In this document: positions 23,022 through 41,535 of the stretch, in pieces
How the letters are laid out: each line of letters begins with the position of its first letter
Position numbering within the stretch: position 1 is the first letter of the stretch
Translations under genes and position numbers: made by a program
The notes under the pieces: model-generated
What the model was told of the DNA's origin: nothing
The model's database searches: none
Seen by the model: only the letters and a program-made list of their open reading frames with translations
NCBI GenBank assembly: GCA_021927905.1
Contig: BLLK01000069.1
Coordinates: 558,001 to 622,000 of the forward strand
Direction: 5' to 3'
Origin: Chaetoceros tenuissimus
Taxonomy: Eukaryota > Bacillariophyta > Thalassiosirophyceae > Chaetocerotales > Chaetocerotaceae
Length of the DNA: 64,000 nucleotides

Positions 23022-26000
23022 TTAGTACTGTGCTGTCTCATCAACAACAACTTTTGATTGTCCTTTATGTTTGACTACTTCATCAATACAGTCAAAACTT
23101 TCGGAAAGCTCTTCCGCCACAAGATCTTGGAGAATAATGAGAATAGTATTTACAGATAGACCACCTAGAGTTCTTACTTGTCCATCGACCTGTTCACTGG
23201 ACTGATTTGTAATGATCTTGCGAAGAAGTTTACCAACAGAATCTCTACCAGAAGAATCCAAATGAGTCAGTGGTTCATCGAGTACAAGTAGAGAAGAGCA
23301 GAGCCTTCCTCGTCTCGAGATTAGGTCTGCAAAACCTAAACTGAGAGCAAGAGAACATCTTCTCCATTGACCTCCACTCAAGGAAGACAGAGGACGAGCT
23401 ACCCAAACTCCATCTGAATTGAGGACCGAAACAGTTCGAAGTATTCTATCGCCGGAGTCTAGCACTAGTTCCAGACGCAAAGTACCATCAGAAAGTTCAT
23501 CTAAATAGGACTGTGATGCAATCTGAAGAGCTTTGACTGTGTTTTGTAAGATGAATGTCTGTACTCCTCTAGCGCCAAAATTATCAGCAGCATTCTTCAT
23601 TACTTCAGCTTCGCGTCTATCATTTTCGCGCTTCGACTCAATATCTTCTAGACTGTTCTGAAGTTCTTCGAGCTCTTTCGCAATCTCATTGCGATTTTCA
23701 ATGGCCGCTGTTAGCCCTTCTTTGAAAGACCTTAGCTCAATGACTGCATTCGATTTCAATGTTTTGACTTCGTTGATGACATCCATGTTCTTTGCTGCTT
23801 GGGCAAGATCATTTGACAACTGAGAGTACGAACCTCTTACTTCTTGGAGTGTTGCTTCGATTTCAGATTGTTTTCCTTGCCATTGATCCTCAATTCTTTC
23901 CATCTCTTTCGTTAGAAATCTGACTTGGTCCTCAATAACATCCACTAGAAGCTGCTTCTCCTTCAATATTTCTTCAGAACTTGATAAAAGACCTTGTAAT
24001 TCTTCAATTTTCCCCATTGCTTCAGACATTGTAGTCTCAACTTCATTTATGAAATGCTGATGAGCTTCATCGTCTTTGATTTCTTGTTTGCAAGTTGGGC
24101 AAACTGAGGGTGGATTTGCTGCTAGAGATGACAAGTCGCTGCTATCCTCAATTCCCCATTTTCTTTCCAAATTTTCCATTGTTTCACAAGCAGATGAAAG
24201 AGATAACTCGTATCTATCAACTTGTCGTAGACACTTTTGTAGTTCTGACTTCTCGAATGATAGATTGTTTGCATATTTGACACGCTCTGCTTCTAGAGGC
24301 TCCAGTTCTTTCTTCATCTCGACAAAGTTCGACGATAGAGAAGATTCGAGGTCGTCAATCTCTTTTCTCAACTCTTCAATCGATGTTTGGATGGTCTCAA
24401 TATCTACACTATCTGACACTTCAGACACAACTTCTTCTTCCAAACGCTTCTTTATCTTCTCCTCCATTTCTAGAAAGGTCTTACCTTTTGATGCAACAAT
24501 ATTATCCGCATTTTCGCGCTTGACTATAACTTTTTCAAGATCACGCTTCCTTATGGAAATCATTCCATCATACTCTGAAACAGATTGAGATAGTGTACGG
24601 GCCATCTTTCTTGCCTTAGCTGCTGCATCTTGCCAGATTTTTAAAGGCACTATAATCGACAGCTCTTCTTTTAGTTTTGCATCAGTTGCCTCTAGCAAAC
24701 CATTCATAGTGTGCTGCCCATGAAAGATGGTTCTTGACAGCACTTGAGGGTCAGCTCCTAGAGATTCTTCAATAAATTGTTGAGTTTCCTTTGCACTCTG
24801 TTTCGTCATATCCTCACCATCCAGCATAAATGTAAGGCTACCTTTTGATGCAGTCTTGGTCCTCGATATGACAAATTCTTTGTTGTTTATCAAACCTTTG
24901 ATAGTAACTTTGGCACTCTGGTGAAATAAGAATTTGTTGTGAGAAAAAGAAGAATTGAACAAGATACATATGTACTTATCAAATAGATACCCACCGATGC
25001 CTTATCGTGAATTACATCTCCTACTTTACCATCATTCACTGGACGGGGATCGATAGATCCGGTTAATGCCCAAAGAGCTGACATGGCTAGTGTTGATTTG
25101 CCACTACCATTGCTATCGGATCCGCCGTCGCGATTAGACCCACGTAGAAGAACAAGGCCCCGATCATTCAGAGGATAAGTAGTAGACTCTTTGAATGGTC
25201 CAAAACCTTCAACAGTGATTTTGTCTAGAGACAGTTTAGTGCTTTGATTCGACTCACGTGTGTCTGCCTCGTTATCATTAACATCTTTAGGAATTCCAAG
25301 TTCCTCCAAAAGATTGTTCCCAGCTTCGAGCAGAATTTCTGCTGTTGAGTTCTTCATCGACTCTCTCTTTACTTCACTACTCAAATAATTTGTCCAAGTT
25401 GTGGAAGGACTCATATCCTCTATCAAAAGCCAGTCTAGAGCATCTTTAAGTTCATCATCGTTGTCAATAACAGAACCTACATGCTGAACATTTGGAATGG
25501 CTTTTGTTTCACGTACTTCAACCGATACACCCAATGATCTCAAGTCTCTAACTTTTGTATCAAATGCAGAACCTCCATTCAGTCTATTTTCTCTAGACTT
25601 TGAATTATTTCTACGATATTCTTCCAAGTCTTCTTGTTGTACAGAAATAACCACTCTATCACCACCCCTTACAACTTTACATGGGCCAGTCAACGCATCA
25701 TTGAAATCGTCTTCATTCATGACTGGAATTTCAAGGAATTCGTCAATGCTCTTACATCTCCAATGCCGCCTTCCTATACTCAAGGGAATTTCTTCAGCAC
25801 AGGTCCAATTCTTGCTAGAATCCAATACTAACAGTGCTTTTTCTTGGTTTGCTTCTGCCAAAGTTGTCTCGTACGGCGAACCTACGTAACGAATTTTCAC
25901 TCCTGGCGCAGCTTCTGGCTTCTCTACTGTATGGGGTTTGTGAAAATGTCCAGACCAAATAGGGACATTTGGAGGAAAATAAGCTGGTGCAATACCACCA

Positions 26001-27607
26001 GATGATGTTATCAAGTCATTCATGTATGCTCCAGTCACATCAGCATGCACAAATAATGCATTGGATGAAGCAGAGGTTTTAGATTGAAGGATAGATTGCA
26101 TCACACCAATTTCTCGAATATGTGGAATAAACATTGCCTCTTTGAACTTTGTCGGATGACTGAAAATCAAAATACCATTGACGTCCCCTTCATCAATAGT
26201 ATTCTTTGTTGAAACTCTATATGCATTTTGTAATGGAGTGAGTGCATGTTCTAGACCACCCAGTGAAACCTGATCATGATTTCCTGGGATCATGATACAT
26301 GGTTGTTCCCAATCACTCAATTCATTCAATACAGCATTGAGACAGTCAACTCTCACTGTTCCTCGATGATGCCAGAAGTCTCCTAGAAATAATATTCCTG
26401 CATTCTGCTTCTTTGCTTCCTCATGTACAGTTTCCAAAACTTTTAGACAAGTACTGAGTGAGGCAGGTGCACAATGCAAGTCAGTAAACATGACCCATTT
26501 ATCATATTGTGCAAAATGCTGACATTGATTGAGATATTGCGCATATCTTCTATTACGAATTTGATCTTGATCCGATTTTTGACATAATACAGATGCATCC
26601 AAGTTTATGACTGTTAGACTTGGTGGTGAAATCAAATCCATCAACATATCCTTCTCTTTCTGCATGACTTCTTCTTTGAAGGTTTCCTCTACTTCTGGAG
26701 GTATTTCATCTAAATCATCAACTTCTTCATAAGTAGCAGCTTTACTTTTGAGAGATTCCAAGAATTCCTCTGAAGAACGTGTTGGTTTAGCATCTATTTC
26801 TGTTGCTTTCTCAGTATTTTTCACTTCAGATGCTAGTGGCCTATCACGAATAGTGAAGTCACCTTCTTGACTAGACTTTGTTGTTTTGTCAGTATTTTTC
26901 ACTTCAGATGCTAGTGGCCTATCACGAATAGTGAAGTCACCTTCTTGACTGGACTTTGTCGTTTCAACTGGTGCTGGAGATGGATTAGGAGCTTGCTGTG
27001 ATTCGCCGGTCTCTGTTCGTAATACTTCACCTGGCCGCGGTTTATCTCTAATGAAAAAATCACCCTTTGGTTTCTCCGGTTCTTTCTCGATTTTGAATGG
27101 GCTTTCATCTTTTTCAACCTTTGCTGGTTCATCTTTCATCCTTTCCTCTCTGGGACGATCAGGAATAGTAAAGCCAATGTTACCCATTAAACCAGAAATT
27201 TTAGGAGTAAGTTCTCCTCCGCGTCTTTTCAAAGTAATGAATCCATTGCCATCTTCCTTTGGAATAGCCACTGTATACCAAACTCCATTGCGTCCTTGAA
27301 TGGTACCTTCATATTGTGCACCATTCATTTGAACCAAGCAAGGCTCTCCTTCTTGAAAGATTCTGTTCTTTGCCTTTCTCCGAGTTGAAAAATATGAATA
27401 AGCTATGACATTTGTTTCAGGGGTAAATCTATTTATTGATTGAGCTGCATTTGTTTGACGTTGTAAATGCTTAGTTGCATGTGACGAAACACGGATCCAT
27501 TGATGAGGACTGAAAGCTCGAACTCTGACCACTGCAAACATCACAACGAAAAGAGAGATGTAGGAAGAGAATATTCTGCTGGCTTCAGCAGTCTTCTGAT
27601 GTCGCAT
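23022..27607 (-). CDS. Single-chain SbcD-SbcC (Mre11-Rad50-like) nuclease-ATPase fusion, plastid-type leader
   Basis: Two exons, 27607-24995 and 24917-23022, with a 77-bp GT-AG intron; spliced length 1502 aa. The first ATG is 27607; the open frame upstream begins at TTG. The signal peptide ends VRVRAF-SPHQ (plastid context). Then come a Tudor/SH3-like stretch (PCLVQMNGAQYEGTIQGRNG), four F-x-I-x-D-R/K-P motifs including a 78-bp tandem duplication, and an SbcD/Mre11 phosphoesterase with FTDLHC (about 374), GDFWHHRG (408), IPGNHDQ (441) and GHFHKPH (about 552). Next is an SbcC/Rad50 ATPase: Walker A GSGKST (about 833), coiled coil, CPTC zinc hook (about 1142), second coil, LSGGQ signature (about 1382) and Walker B LLVLDEP (about 1416). 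All catalytic motifs appear intact. The coils are short compared with bacterial SbcC. Processing of DNA ends or hairpins in the plastid is the inferred role. Confidence 0.9.
26805..26965 (-). repeat. 78-bp in-frame tandem duplication in the SbcDC linker
   Basis: Two near-identical 78-bp units encode the 26-residue segment containing EGDFTIRDRPLASEVKNT. Two more diverged copies of the F-x-I-x-D-R/K-P core lie nearer the N-terminus (GDFFIRDKPRPGEV and GFTIPDRPREER). Confidence 0.8.
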
Positions 27608-33845: not shown

Positions 33846-34232
33846 GTTATTTCTGGTTAATCAAAATAATACATCAACAAAACAGGCAACAACACGGAAC
33901 ACTGATGGAGCGGATAGCGTAATATGTGGCCATGAACGTCCGTGCATTGACCGATTGACCGACGTGGGAATGTCTCATTTGTACGACATTTCTGACAGGA
34001 ATGTCTCATCATTACGTAGAATTCTTTGGGAAGAACTTCCAACTTTTCTCCAAGAAGTTCAACCATACCCTAGAAAAAAGATAAAAACCTGCTCGTACTC
34101 ACTTTAACTTCCCTAAATCGAAGAATAGTTTACTTATGACACGTATGTGAACACAAAAGTTCTTTGAAAAGATATGATAGATCTTTTATCTCAATATATA
34201 CTCCAACAAAATTAATTGAAATTCTCGACCAA
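33846..34232. other. Divergent intergenic region; start of duplicated block
   Basis: It lies between the methyltransferase-like ATG and the 8-TM protein ATG. Sequence from about 34040 onward is shared with the block beginning at about 37761. Confidence 0.5.
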
Positions 34233-35753
34233 ATGAAAACGACTAGCTCGACAGCCTCGCAAATCCTAAGATCGAGGACAAGAAACATATCTTCCCAGCC
34301 TCTCTCGACCACAATCACCGAAGAAAGAAATGGTTATGGGAGCAGTATAAGAACTACAACAGTTAGATATTCGAATGGATCAGAATTTTCATCAAAGGAA
34401 CTCCTAGCTACTTCTAATGAAGTACTCGTACCTCTTCAAGAGGTACGAGTACATACACCGCTGATGCTCTCTTCTTGTGATATCAATCAGGGCCTTACTT
34501 CCAGCAGTCCTTCCACTGTTTATCCAGAAAGATATTCATTTCTCCAAGTTCCGAGTTATCGAAAATCTCTCCAGGCTTTCTTTGCAGGAATAGCATCAAT
34601 TATTGCTGCAAATATCTTGCTTGCTTGCGTTACAAACCACGATCATACAGAAATTGGCATCATTCTGGTATACTTATTTAGTATATTCTCTCTTTTTTGC
34701 TTTACATTTGCGTTTCTGGATATGTATTCAGCTCTGCTTTCTTTCAAATACAATCAGGATAAAAACAGCATGAACAATTACGACTCCGTCAATTTTGGGG
34801 ATATTTGGAAAGAAGTGATGGCAGAAGGTGCTTCTTGTATGCTTGGAGTAAGCTGGTTGATTTTTTGTCTTGGTTTTGTTACAGCGGCCACCACTTTGAT
34901 TTTGGGTGTCTTTACAAATAAAGCTGTGATCGGATTGATTTGCTTGATGACCATGTGGTTATCAGTTGCCTATGCCTTGATGTGTCACCAAGCAGAGTCA
35001 TCAAGATTAGGACCAAAGGGGAAAAAATCAAACAATCCAGACGAGTATGTGGATGAATCCATTCATTCATTCTTTGTGGCAGTCAGGAATGGTATTCTCT
35101 CTGTGGTATTCCTCGTAGTAGAAAATACCATGATAGATGGAGATTGGTATGAAAACCCTGTTCGCGTGGTATTGGTAATGATGACAGTGGGGTTTGGTGT
35201 AGCTTCATTCATCCACTATACAATTGCATTTACATTGATTCGTCTTGCGAAGGCTGATTCAGATGAGATGAGAAAGACGAAGAAAGAAAAGGATGGTTAC
35301 ATTGTGCGTCCTTCTTCTCTCTTCGTGTTTGCAACCTTTTTACAAATATTGGGTTTGATCACTTTCGTTGTTACTCTAATCATGGCTTCTATTGATGAAC
35401 CAATTAATCCTAGGTTCGTTCTCTTTTTGATTTTTTGGCACTCAGTTACATGGTGGCTTTTAATGCTCGAACATGAGCCTTCACTGAAACGTACATCATC
35501 ATGTCATGTATGCTTTGATTATGTTGAAACTGACAACATGAAGTACAAGATGATTGGTGTCGAGCACGATATAGAGAGTCAAGAAACTCTCACTTACGAC
35601 CCCATTGGACAGGAACCTAGTCAGGATCTTACAGAAAATAGCAGCAATGATAGCAGTACTCAGGATCTGAATACAGTAGATACTATCGAGGCGAATAGAA
35701 TTACGTCAAATACAACTTATGAGCCTCCAGTGCTCGGAAGCAATGAAGAGTAG
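34233..35753 (+). CDS. Unknown 8-TM membrane protein (single-unit paralogue)
   Basis: Single exon. The frame opens at TTG; the first ATG is at 34233 (MKTTSSTASQ), giving 506 aa, and the same ATG is conserved in the sister gene. A Ser/Thr-rich cytosolic N-terminus is followed by a membrane unit with eight predicted helices, including FFAGIASIIAANILLACV, VYLFSIFSLFCFTFAFLDMY, LGVSWLIFCLGFVTAATTLI, IGLICLMTMWLSVAYALM, VVLVMMTVGFGVASFIHYTI and FLIFWHSVTWWLLMLEHEP. The tail is acidic and Asn/Ser-rich. The family is not recognised. Positions 34422-34452 are a perfect palindrome that replaces a different coding segment present in the sister gene. Confidence 0.8.
   Translation: MKTTSSTASQILRSRTRNISSQPLSTTITEERNGYGSSIRTTTVRYSNGSEFSSKELLATSNEVLVPLQEVRVHTPLMLSSCDINQGLTSSSPSTVYPERYSFLQVPSYRKSLQAFFAGIASIIAANILLACVTNHDHTEIGIILVYLFSIFSLFCFTFAFLDMYSALLSFKYNQDKNSMNNYDSVNFGDIWKEVMAEGASCMLGVSWLIFCLGFVTAATTLILGVFTNKAVIGLICLMTMWLSVAYALMCHQAESSRLGPKGKKSNNPDEYVDESIHSFFVAVRNGILSVVFLVVENTMIDGDWYENPVRVVLVMMTVGFGVASFIHYTIAFTLIRLAKADSDEMRKTKKEKDGYIVRPSSLFVFATFLQILGLITFVVTLIMASIDEPINPRFVLFLIFWHSVTWWLLMLEHEPSLKRTSSCHVCFDYVETDNMKYKMIGVEHDIESQETLTYDPIGQEPSQDLTENSSNDSSTQDLNTVDTIEANRITSNTTYEPPVLGSNEE
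34422..34452. repeat. 31-bp perfect palindrome inside coding sequence
   Basis: Two 15-bp arms (GTACTCGTACCTCTT and its reverse complement) flank a single C. In the sister gene (from about 38150) only the left arm exists and a different sequence follows. The net length change is 9 bp, so the frame is kept. Confidence 0.9.
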
Positions 35754-37760: not shown

Positions 37761-37917
37761 CAACTTTTGCTGAGGAAGTTCTACCTTATACCCTAGAAAA
37801 AAGATAAAAACCTGCTCGTACTCACTTTAACTTCAAATCGAAGAATAGTTTACTTACTTATGGCACATCTGTGAACACAAACGTTCTTTGAAAAGATATT
37901 GATAGATCTTTATCTCA

Positions 37918-40900
37918 ATGTATTCTCCAACAAAATTAATTGAAATTCTCGACCAAATGAAAACGACAAGATCGACAGGAGCCTCGCAAATCCTAAGATC
38001 GAGGACTAGAAACATATCTTCCCAGCCTCTCTCGACCACAATCACCGAAGAAAGAAATATTGATGGGAGTATTACAAGAATCACAACAGTTCGATATTCG
38101 AATGGATCAGAGTTTTCATCAAAGGAACTCCTAGCTACTTCTAATGAAGTACTCGTACCTCTGGAAGATACTTCTTCTCGTCAGTCATCTACACCGCTGA
38201 TGCTCTCTTCTTGTGATATCAATCAGGGCCTTACTTCCAGCAGTCCTTCCACTGTTTATCCAGAAAGATATTCATTTCTCCAAGTTCCGAGTTATCGAAA
38301 ATCTCTCCAGGCTTTCTTTGCAGGAATAGCATCAATTATTGCTGCAAATATCTTGCTTGCTTGCGTTACAAACCACGATCATACAGAAATTGGCATCGTT
38401 CTGGTATACTTATTTAGTATATTCTCTCTTTTTTGCTTTACATTTGCGTTTCTGGATATGTATTCAGCTCTGCTTTCTTTCAAATACAATCAGGATAAAA
38501 ACAGCATGAACAATTACGACTCCGTCAATTTTGGGGATATTTGGAAAGAAGTGATGGCAGAAGGTGGTTCCCGCATGCTTGGAGTAAGCTGGTTGATTTT
38601 TTGTCTTGGTTTTGTTACAGCAGCCACCACTTTGATTTTGGGTGTCTTTACAAATAAAGCTGCGATCGGATTTATTTGCTTGATGACCATGTGGTTGTCA
38701 GTTGCCTATGCCTTGATGTGTTACCAAGCAGAGTCATCAAGATTAGGACCAAAGGAAAAACCTTCAACCACTCCAGACGAGTATGTGGATGAATCCATTC
38801 ATTCATTCTTTGTGGCACTCAGGAATGGTATTCTATCTGTGGTATTCCTCGTAGTAGAAAATACCATGATAGATGGAGATTGGTATGAAAACCCTGTTCG
38901 CGTGGTATTGGTAATGATGACAGTGGGGTTTGGTGTAGCTTCATTTGTCCACTATACAATTGCATTTACATTGATTCGTCTTGCAAAGGCTGATTCAGAT
39001 GAGATGAGAAAGACGAAGAAAGAAAAGGATGGTTACATTGTGCGTCCTTCTTCTCTCTTCGTGATTACAACCTTTTTACAAATATTGGGTTTGATCACTT
39101 TCGTTGTTACTCTAATCATGGCTTCTATTGATGAACCAATTAATCCTAGGTTCGTTCTCTTTTTGATTTTTTGGCACTCAGTTACATGGTGGCTTTTAAT
39201 GCTCGAACATGAGCCTTCACTGAAACGTACATCATTATGTCATGCATGCTTTGATTATGTTGAAACTGACAACATGAAGTACAAGATGATTAATGTCGAT
39301 CTCCAAGTTCCGAGTTATCGAAAATCTCTCCAGGCTTTCTTTGCAGGAATAGCATCAATTATTGCTGCAAATATCTTGCTTGCTTGCGTTACAAACCACG
39401 ATCATACAGAAATTGGCATCGTTCTAGTATACTTATTTAGTATATTCTCTCTTTTTTGCTTTACATTTGCGTTTCTGGATATGTATTCAGTTCTGCTTTC
39501 TTTCAAATACAATCAGGATAAAAACAGCATGAACAATTACGACTCCGTCAATTTTGGGGACATTTGGAAAGAAGTGATGGCAGAAGGTGCTTCTCGTATG
39601 CTTGGAGTAAGCTGGTTGATTTTTTGTCTTGGTTTTGTTACAGCAGCCACCACTTTGATTTTGGGTGTCTTTACAAATAAAGCTGCGATCGGATTTATTT
39701 GCTTGATGACCATGTGGTTGTCAGTTGCCTATGCCTTGATGTGTTACCAAGCAGAGTCATCAAGATTAGGACCAAAGGAAAAACCTTCAACCACTCCAGA
39801 CGAGTATATGGATGAATCCATTCATTCATTCTTTGTGGCACTCAGGAATGGTATTCTATCTGTGGTATTCCTCGTAGTAGAAAATACCATGATAGATGGA
39901 GATTGGTATGAAAACCCTGTTCGCGTGGTATTGGTAATGATGACAGTGGGGTTTGGTGTAGCTTCATTCATCCACTATACAATTGCATTTACATTGATTC
40001 GTCTTGCAAAGGCTGATTCAGATGAGATGAGAAAGACGAAGAAAGAAAAGGATGGTTACATTGTGCGTCCTTCTTCTCTCTTCGTGATTACAACCTTTTT
40101 ACAAATATTGGGTTTGATCACTTTCGTTGTTACTCTAATCATGGCTTCTATTGATGAACCAATTAATCCTAGGTTCGTTCTCTTTTTGATTTTTTGGCAC
40201 TCAGTTACATGGTGGCTTTTAATGCTCGAACATGAGCCTTCACTGAAACGTACATCATTATGTCATGCATGCTTTGATTATGTTGAAACTGACAACATGA
40301 AGTACAAGATGATTAATGTCGATCTCCAAGTTCCGAGTTATCGAAAATCTCTCCAGGCTTTCTTTGCAGGAATAGCATCAATTATTGCTGCAAATATCTT
40401 GCTTGCTTGCGTTACAAACCACGATCATACAGAAATTGGCATCATTCTGGTATACTTATTTAGTATATTCTCTCTTTTTTGCTTTACATTTGCGTTTCTG
40501 GATATGTATTCAGCTCTGCTTTCTTTCAAATACAATCAGGATAAAAACAGCATGAACAATTACGACTCCGTCAATTTTGGGGACATTTTGAAAGAAGTGA
40601 TGGCAGAAGGTGGTTCCCGTATGCTTGGAGTAAGCTGGTTGATTTTTTGTCTTGGTTTTGTTACAGCAGCCACCACTTTGATTTTGGGTGTCTTTACAAA
40701 TAAAGCTGCGATCGGATTTATTTGCTTGATGACCATGTGGTTGTCAGTTGCCTATGCCTTGATGTGTTACCAAGCAGAGTCATCAAGATTAGGACCAAAG
40801 GAAAAACCTTCAACCACTCCAGACGAGTATGTGGATGAATCCATTCATTCATTCTTTGTGGCACTCAGGAATGGTATTCTCTCTGTTTTATTCCTCGTAG

Positions 40901-41535
40901 TAGAAAATACCATGATAGATGGAGATTGGTATGAAAACCCTGTTCGCGTGGTATTGGTAATGATAACAGTGGGCTTCGGTGTAGCTTCATTCATCCACTA
41001 TACAATTGCATTTACATTGATTCGTCTTGCAAAGGCTGATTCAGATGAGATGAGAAAGACGAAGAAAGAAAAGAATGGTTACATTGTGCGTCCTTCTTCT
41101 CTCTTCGTGTTTACAACCTTTTTACAAATATTGGGTTTGATCACTTTCGTTGTTACTCTAATCATGGCTTCTATTGATGAACCAATTAATCCTAGGTTCG
41201 TTCTCTTTTTGATTTTTTGGCACTCAGTTACATGGTGGCTTTTAATGCTCGAACATGAGCCTTCACTGAAACGTACATCATTATGTCATGCATGCTTTGA
41301 TTATAATGAAACTGACAACATGAAGTACAAGATGATTGGTGTCGAGCACGATATAGAGAGTCAAGAAACTCTCACTTACGACCCCATTGGACAGGAACCT
41401 AGTCAGGATCTTACAGAAAATAGCAGCAATGATAGCAGTACTCAGGATCTGAATACAGTAGATACTATCGAGGCGAATAGAATTACGTCAAAGACAACTT
41501 ATGAGCCTCCAGTGCTCGGAAGCAATGAAGAGTAG
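37918..41535 (+). CDS. Triplicated membrane protein, about 24 TM segments
   Basis: A single open frame of 1205 aa from ATG 37918; the ATG shared with the sister gene is 37957. After a Ser-rich N-terminus come three head-to-tail copies of the same 341-residue, 8-TM unit (residues 121-461, 462-802 and 803 to about 1140), then one acidic tail (EHDIESQETLTYDPIGQEP). Unit starts are at 38278, 39301 and 40324, an exact 1023-bp (341-codon) period. The units are nearly identical in DNA, so the expansion is very recent. They differ at scattered codons, e.g. IVLVY versus IILVY, MYSVLLS versus MYSALLS, and DIWKE versus DILKE. An even number of helices per unit keeps topology the same, so the fused protein could fold as three equivalent domains. 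Function unknown. Confidence 0.8.
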   Translation: MYSPTKLIEILDQMKTTRSTGASQILRSRTRNISSQPLSTTITEERNIDGSITRITTVRYSNGSEFSSKELLATSNEVLVPLEDTSSRQSSTPLMLSSCDINQGLTSSSPSTVYPERYSFLQVPSYRKSLQAFFAGIASIIAANILLACVTNHDHTEIGIVLVYLFSIFSLFCFTFAFLDMYSALLSFKYNQDKNSMNNYDSVNFGDIWKEVMAEGGSRMLGVSWLIFCLGFVTAATTLILGVFTNKAAIGFICLMTMWLSVAYALMCYQAESSRLGPKEKPSTTPDEYVDESIHSFFVALRNGILSVVFLVVENTMIDGDWYENPVRVVLVMMTVGFGVASFVHYTIAFTLIRLAKADSDEMRKTKKEKDGYIVRPSSLFVITTFLQILGLITFVVTLIMASIDEPINPRFVLFLIFWHSVTWWLLMLEHEPSLKRTSLCHACFDYVETDNMKYKMINVDLQVPSYRKSLQAFFAGIASIIAANILLACVTNHDHTEIGIVLVYLFSIFSLFCFTFAFLDMYSVLLSFKYNQDKNSMNNYDSVNFGDIWKEVMAEGASRMLGVSWLIFCLGFVTAATTLILGVFTNKAAIGFICLMTMWLSVAYALMCYQAESSRLGPKEKPSTTPDEYMDESIHSFFVALRNGILSVVFLVVENTMIDGDWYENPVRVVLVMMTVGFGVASFIHYTIAFTLIRLAKADSDEMRKTKKEKDGYIVRPSSLFVITTFLQILGLITFVVTLIMASIDEPINPRFVLFLIFWHSVTWWLLMLEHEPSLKRTSLCHACFDYVETDNMKYKMINVDLQVPSYRKSLQAFFAGIASIIAANILLACVTNHDHTEIGIILVYLFSIFSLFCFTFAFLDMYSALLSFKYNQDKNSMNNYDSVNFGDILKEVMAEGGSRMLGVSWLIFCLGFVTAATTLILGVFTNKAAIGFICLMTMWLSVAYALMCYQAESSRLGPKEKPSTTPDEYVDESIHSFFVALRNGILSVLFLVVENTMIDGDWYENPVRVVLVMITVGFGVASFIHYTIAFTLIRLAKADSDEMRKTKKEKNGYIVRPSSLFVFTTFLQILGLITFVVTLIMASIDEPINPRFVLFLIFWHSVTWWLLMLEHEPSLKRTSLCHACFDYNETDNMKYKMIGVEHDIESQETLTYDPIGQEPSQDLTENSSNDSSTQDLNTVDTIEANRITSKTTYEPPVLGSNEE
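38278..41346 (+). repeat. Three in-frame 1023-bp tandem units
   Basis: Units start with CTCCAAGTTCCGAGTTATCG at 38278, 39301 and 40324. Junctions read YKMINVD-LQVPSYRK at both internal boundaries. The third unit ends in the original YKMIGVEHD context. Confidence 0.92.

Follow-up and report, generated by a model that had tools for sequence, protein, structure and literature searches.

Complexes of the Mre11–Rad50 kind are built from a nuclease dimer and two ATPase heads that close upon ATP, with coiled coils joined at a zinc hook. A gene predicted to encode both halves in one chain lies in the diatom Chaetoceros tenuissimus, on a 64,000-nucleotide stretch (positions 558,001 to 622,000 of contig BLLK01000069.1, assembly GCA_021927905.1) that is called the window here. 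Such fusions have been described. The available text of Yoshida, Claverie and Ogata (2011; PMC3175470) reports an Mre11/Rad50 fusion in Mimivirus (R555) and in twelve other sources: five bacteria, a phage, two slime moulds, a moss, two Micromonas and Phaeodactylum tricornutum (Phaeodactylum B7FXD6, Physcomitrella A9RK34, Micromonas C1N0B1 and C1FJU6). The fusions branch apart from the canonical clades of bacteria and eukaryotes, a moss–diatom–prasinophyte group among them has a bootstrap value of 91%, and a viral origin was proposed (PMC3175470). Every cellular host except Deferribacter keeps separate canonical genes, and the fused geometry was regarded as consistent with that of the T. maritima complex, for which 9–12 linking residues would suffice (PMC3175470). 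As far as their available text goes, a subsequent study of Mimivirus refers to the R555 fusion (PMC6466248), and a Rad50-like protein lacking an Mre11 part is reported from a prasinovirus (PMC12906663). No further description of an algal fusion was recognised by title or abstract in the open-access literature, with few subscription papers covered. The initial annotation of the window stated that no characterised fusion was known. This claim of novelty fails because the 2011 study had already described the architecture, a diatom included (PMC3175470), whereas the narrower statement that no fusion is biochemically characterised may still be true, as that study is bioinformatic.

The C. tenuissimus fusion gene is real and intact, and its domain matches exceed chance. 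It is best read as a new, non-canonical diatom member of the known fusion family. The two-exon frame of 1502 codons first proposed stands with its exact coordinates: once spliced, it is open from M1, the earliest methionine in the exon 1 open frame, to the stop (Table 1). The product is ordered as leader, N-terminal extension, Mre11/SbcD-type phosphoesterase, linker and Rad50/SbcC-type ATPase, and the phosphoesterase and ATPase motifs named at the outset were all located (DLH at residue 376, GDFWHH 409, GNHD 442, GHFH 553, GSGKST 834, CPTC 1144, LSGGQ 1384 and LDEP 1415). Pfam places Metallophos (6.5e-7) and AAA_23 (7e-8) above cut-off and SMC_N and SbcC_Walker_B below it, and PHROG gives SbcC-like (1.1e-63) and SbcD-like (7.4e-22) matches in D-then-C order, in agreement with a single-chain SbcD–SbcC-type fusion. 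We infer the 77-bp intron from the frame, from its GT–AG ends and from phage SbcC, with which the spliced ATPase half aligns along its length. Unspliced, the frame passes the intron and meets a stop at 24890, barely within exon 2, so the ATPase would be truncated without splicing.

The host genome (41 Mb) holds 11 silicon transporter family matches, all above cut-off, as befits a diatom. Queried with the N-terminal part, with exon 2 or with the SbcC model of PHROG, this genome yields a single locus for the fusion, though the nuclease part was not used as a query by itself. Pieces of canonical Rad50 occur on contig 17 and of canonical Mre11 on contig 44, all short of the curated cut-off, probably an effect of scoring exons one by one; a survey of diatoms, in its available text, likewise lists Rad50 and Mre11 as separate (PMC4647503). 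With separate canonical genes present, the nuclear role is therefore probably filled. Taken together, the locus is, with fair but not high confidence, a nuclear diatom gene encoding a non-canonical SbcD–SbcC fusion of phage or virus type that carries a plastid-import leader and would act as a nuclease on DNA ends and hairpins.

In heterokonts, plastid proteins begin with a signal peptide, followed by an ASAFAP motif and then a transit peptide; the phenylalanine after the cleavage site is almost invariant and the motif is required for import, according to the available text of the source (PMC2567999). The leader of the fusion fits diatom plastid import in its form, as the initial annotation had supposed: the most hydrophobic 13-residue window spans residues 17–29, VRVRA and then FSPH follow, and a basic stretch succeeds the phenylalanine after the putative cleavage site. 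The ASAFAP motif is matched only in part (VRVRAFSPH), and the available text on the earlier fusions is silent on plastids, chloroplasts, organelles and targeting (PMC3175470). Both points would suit a leader that serves for secretion or as a membrane anchor, or a protein that acts in the nucleus, the mitochondrion or the periplastid space. Against such a non-plastidial site stand the correct order of hydrophobic core, phenylalanine and acid-poor basic stretch, and the near constancy of this residue in a motif essential for import (PMC2567999); we hold it to be doubtful. By eye, a hydrophobic leader with a similar phenylalanine behind it recurs in at least five further frames of the window.

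The nuclease half has all the metal-binding and catalytic residues of Mre11/SbcD (D-x-H, GDxx(H/D), GNHD and GHxH). A profile built from this half and five phage SbcD matched 27 distinct solved sequences, with SbcD 7dog and T. maritima Mre11 3qg5 at the top. In phmmer, six of the nine phage or plasmid rows scored 30–42 bits and the remaining three 7–19, with E. coli SbcD at 5 and the diatom's own Mre11 unlisted. An AlphaFold model of residues 366–870 (two sequences) reached a pLDDT of 34 and was not used.

The ATPase half carries Walker A, Q-loop, CxxC hook, signature and Walker B/D-loop motifs of Rad50/SbcC, and its affinity is chiefly with phages. The PHROG SbcC-like model scores 217 bits, while the best NCBIfam Rad50 model reaches 55 and bacterial SbcC 29; all 14 of 14 control prokaryotes also match the PHROG model. 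The NCBIfam cut-offs are missed by TIGR00618 (SbcC; 28.9 of 478.5 bits), PRK10966 (SbcD; 27.2 of 450) and TIGR00619 (19.7 of 77.65). Thus the SbcD–SbcC label first given holds in the broad sense, while canonical bacterial models fall short and phage-type homologs score higher. In phmmer, SbcC of Bacillus phage SBSphiC scored 91 bits and five more phage or phage-like plasmid rows 69–87, compared with 35–51 for six cyanobacterial SbcC, 12 for E. coli SbcC and 11.5 for pieces of the diatom's own Rad50. An insertion before the P-loop, judged by eye, is shared with all nine phage and plasmid rows and is found in none of the seven bacterial rows (six of them cyanobacterial) and not in the diatom's own Rad50. 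The coils are short, as first noted (roughly 170–200 residues per arm): the ATPase measures 713 aa, compared with 634–714 in phages and 1003–1054 in the bacterial rows. D precedes C on one strand as separate genes in all nine phage and phage-like plasmid records used; the two overlap in SBSphiC and MA9V-3 and elsewhere have up to several small genes between them. Judged by its sequence, the ATPase is Rad50/SbcC-like, neither canonical SbcC nor canonical Rad50, and the fusion is probably of viral stock. The LmuB models of PADLOC also match exon 2 (67 bits, 3.4e-19), which is read as general Rad50-like homology. This score for the ATPase half exceeds that of NCBIfam bacterial SbcC for the whole protein (28.9), and phage-type SbcC and defence ATPases thus appear close.

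A plastid protein might instead descend from the endosymbiont itself, if cyanobacterial SbcD and SbcC had moved to the nucleus and fused. The leader would suit such a history, exon 2 matches 61 of 194 cyanobacterial genomes at E <= 0.001, and a tree that omits the diatom's own Rad50 gives weak support (82/74) to a position of the ATPase half on the bacterial side. However, the top cyanobacterial match reaches 49.4 bits over residues 341–561 of the 631 in exon 2, exon 1 is unmatched in four cyanobacterial genomes (a search without a positive control), and a clade of the fusion with the six cyanobacterial SbcC is rejected (p-AU 0.0039, for a group defined after inspection of an initial tree). 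A simple cyanobacterial origin is unlikely, and distinctly so for the full endosymbiont account, because phage SbcC score best and the P-loop insertion and short coils are shared with phages and absent from the seven bacterial SbcC.

Several results weigh against a phage-type, plastid-directed enzyme. Trees of both halves are weakly supported and long-branched and give no firm placement. With the diatom's own Rad50 and Mre11 included, the halves join them weakly (59/71 and 73/83), a pattern flagged as long branches meeting. Because of their long branches, the second ATPase tree was built without the diatom's own Rad50 and the phage row ChrysMA9V3, and the second nuclease tree without its own Mre11; the former puts the ATPase half weakly on the bacterial side, as given above, and the latter the nuclease half weakly on a phage side (79/87). 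An ATPase clade with four Herelleviridae fits worse, though it is not rejected (p-AU 0.08). Three of the nine phage and plasmid ATPase rows are low or unlisted (32, 6 and none for RaK2), and the best scores are unevenly sampled, the phage rows coming from 50,697 records and the cyanobacterial ones from 194 genomes. Finally, the H-loop histidine is absent: glutamine takes its place in the fusion and in SbcC of Chryseobacterium phage MA9V-3, and histidine is present in 16 of 18 rows. ATP hydrolysis may be slowed or altered by this change; the Rad50/SbcC-like label is kept because of the other motifs and the profile scores.

The same glutamine, together with the phage-type affinity, could be signs of a viral insertion that survives as a decayed or non-enzymatic remnant. 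With 1502 open codons and the remaining motifs intact, this is highly improbable. Moreover, no viral family appears among the seven neighbouring frames scanned, which comprise a tRNA pseudouridine synthase, a DnaJ, a 2OG oxygenase, an aminotransferase, a photolyase and two frames without an above-cut-off match (one sub-threshold). That two genes were wrongly joined, with a false intron and separate nuclease and ATPase products, is scarcely credible, as the splice junction lies inside the ATPase, 32 residues past GKST, and not between the halves, and the nuclease and the ATPase N-lobe are fused regardless of the intron because exon 1 encodes the nuclease, the linker and Walker A without a break in the frame.

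If the phage-type fusion works as an enzyme of this kind, two chains probably form a dimer, held together at the nuclease, at the ATPase heads with ATP sandwiched between them, and at the CPTC hook. The manganese nuclease would then be gated by the binding and hydrolysis of ATP as it acts on DNA ends, hairpins or blocked ends; in the cell, its likely substrates are plastid DNA ends and hairpins. The products may feed recombination or replication of plastid DNA, and the fusion would keep nuclease and ATPase at 1:1. Phage-type polymerases are known to serve organelles. By comparison, it is possible, though short of probable, that photosynthetic eukaryotes (diatoms, perhaps mosses and prasinophytes) acquired a phage- or giant-virus-type SbcDC and sent it to the plastid, where DNA ends would be processed by viral-type machinery that is neither cyanobacterial nor nuclear. 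A plastid leader on a phage-type SbcDC, if true, would suggest that the moss–diatom–prasinophyte group serves plastid genome maintenance. Fusions have been known since 2011, and the available text of that study does not state their cellular site and role in algae (PMC3175470). A single chain with inseparable nuclease and ATPase is also a handy object for structure and mechanism.

The N-terminal extension ahead of the nuclease had been described as Tudor-like with a repeat. The repeat is confirmed as four FxIx(D)(K/R)P copies; a pattern covering three of the four occurs genome-wide at the fusion gene only, and a 78-bp tandem duplication (2.1 copies, 95% match) lies at 26801–26964 within the extension. 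The Tudor-like part is weakly supported: the model of residues 82–140 has five strands (pLDDT 66), no Pfam match falls in the extension, and none of 787 PDB matches at E <= 10 is a confident fold match at E <= 0.001, several of the 50 listed being Tudor chains (E 0.14 and above). No second copy of the extension appeared in the genome at E <= 10, with seven candidates scored. As a guess, the extension is a lineage-specific tail that perhaps binds DNA or a partner.

No fused relative was found in viral and genome collections by single-protein or alignment scans and a few exact peptide patterns, an absence that is weak evidence because so few exact patterns were used. One scan gave 21 pattern matches, of which one was a relative: an SPO1-like phage in which D and C are distinct genes sharing a single base. 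Another gave 17 pattern matches and no relative, and two more likewise turned up no relative. A degenerate GDFWHHRG match in viral contigs was rejected as chance, since by eye it sits in another frame of a terminase-looking gene. Among the 60 phage matches listed of 900, some of them unannotated, no single annotated gene spans both halves. Exon 1 had no megablast match in E. coli genomes. In plasmids, tblastn matched 162 records, nine of them covering >80% of the query; in one of these, a 109-kb Cronobacter plasmid, the metallophosphoesterase and ATPase genes are separate.

Three further loci stood out. On contig 17 (442278–446357, reverse strand), three tandem silicon-transporter domains form one long frame region, one match having two internal stops, possibly an intron. 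In the window, a 537-aa frame (34140–35753, forward strand) resembles, by eye, a membrane protein with several spans. The adjoining 1209-aa frame (37906–41535, forward strand) carries three near-identical tandem copies of that same unit, which by eye suggests recent intragenic amplification.

Table 1. Features of the fusion gene, in window coordinates.
Feature	Position	Strand	Basis
Fusion gene, two exons, 1502 aa + stop	23022..27607	(-)	spliced frame open from M1 to stop
Exon 1, 871 codons: leader, N-terminal extension, nuclease, linker, ATPase N-lobe with Walker A	24995..27607	(-)	
Putative intron, 77 bp, GT–AG (GTGGGT...CAG)	24918..24994	(-)	frame, ends, phage SbcC alignment
Exon 2, 631 aa + stop: coiled coils, hook, ATPase C-lobe	23022..24917	(-)	
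Signal-peptide-like leader, residues 1–31, ending VRVRA ahead of F32	27515..27607	(-)	hydropathy, putative cleavage site
Transit-peptide-like stretch, residues 32–80, 8 basic and 1 acidic	27368..27514	(-)	
Possible small beta-barrel (SH3/Tudor-like), residues 82–140, low confidence	27188..27364	(-)	pLDDT 65.9, Foldseek E 0.13
Four FxIx(D)(K/R)P repeats, final two inside the 78-bp tandem duplication	26798..27172	(-)	
Mre11/SbcD phosphoesterase core: DLH, GDFWHH, GNHD, FVHAD, GHFH	25940..26500	(-)	
Polar linker between halves, about 20 residues (771–791), limits approximate	25235..25297	(-)	by eye, phage SbcD chain ends
Walker A with phage-type pre-P-loop insertion, GSNRDGGSDSNGSGKST	25091..25141	(-)	
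Zinc hook CPTC	24090..24101	(-)	
ABC signature LSGGQ	23367..23381	(-)	
Walker B LLVLDEP, then D-loop LD	23271..23291	(-)	
H-loop position ILQD, glutamine instead of histidine	23124..23135	(-)	

Compared with known systems, the fusion shares domain types with the same diatom's canonical Mre11 and Rad50, which are separate genes on other contigs (44 and 17). It has common motifs and presumed chemistry with canonical E. coli SbcCD and cyanobacterial SbcC, whose chains are longer, lack the P-loop insertion and score weakly. SbcD/SbcC of SPO1-like Herelleviridae (the T4 gp47/gp46 kind) give the best ATPase match, have an SNG-x-GKS-type P-loop with an insertion before it, agree in chain length (634–714 versus 713) and place D before C, whereas theirs are separate genes without a leader, at about 20–28% identity. 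The fusions of Yoshida et al. (2011) agree in having an N-terminal nuclease and a C-terminal ATPase in one chain with a short linker, and separate canonical genes in the host; the likeness is by description rather than by sequence, and a plastid leader is not mentioned in the available text (PMC3175470). By eye, the linker of the C. tenuissimus protein (about 20 residues) exceeds the 9–12 that would suffice.

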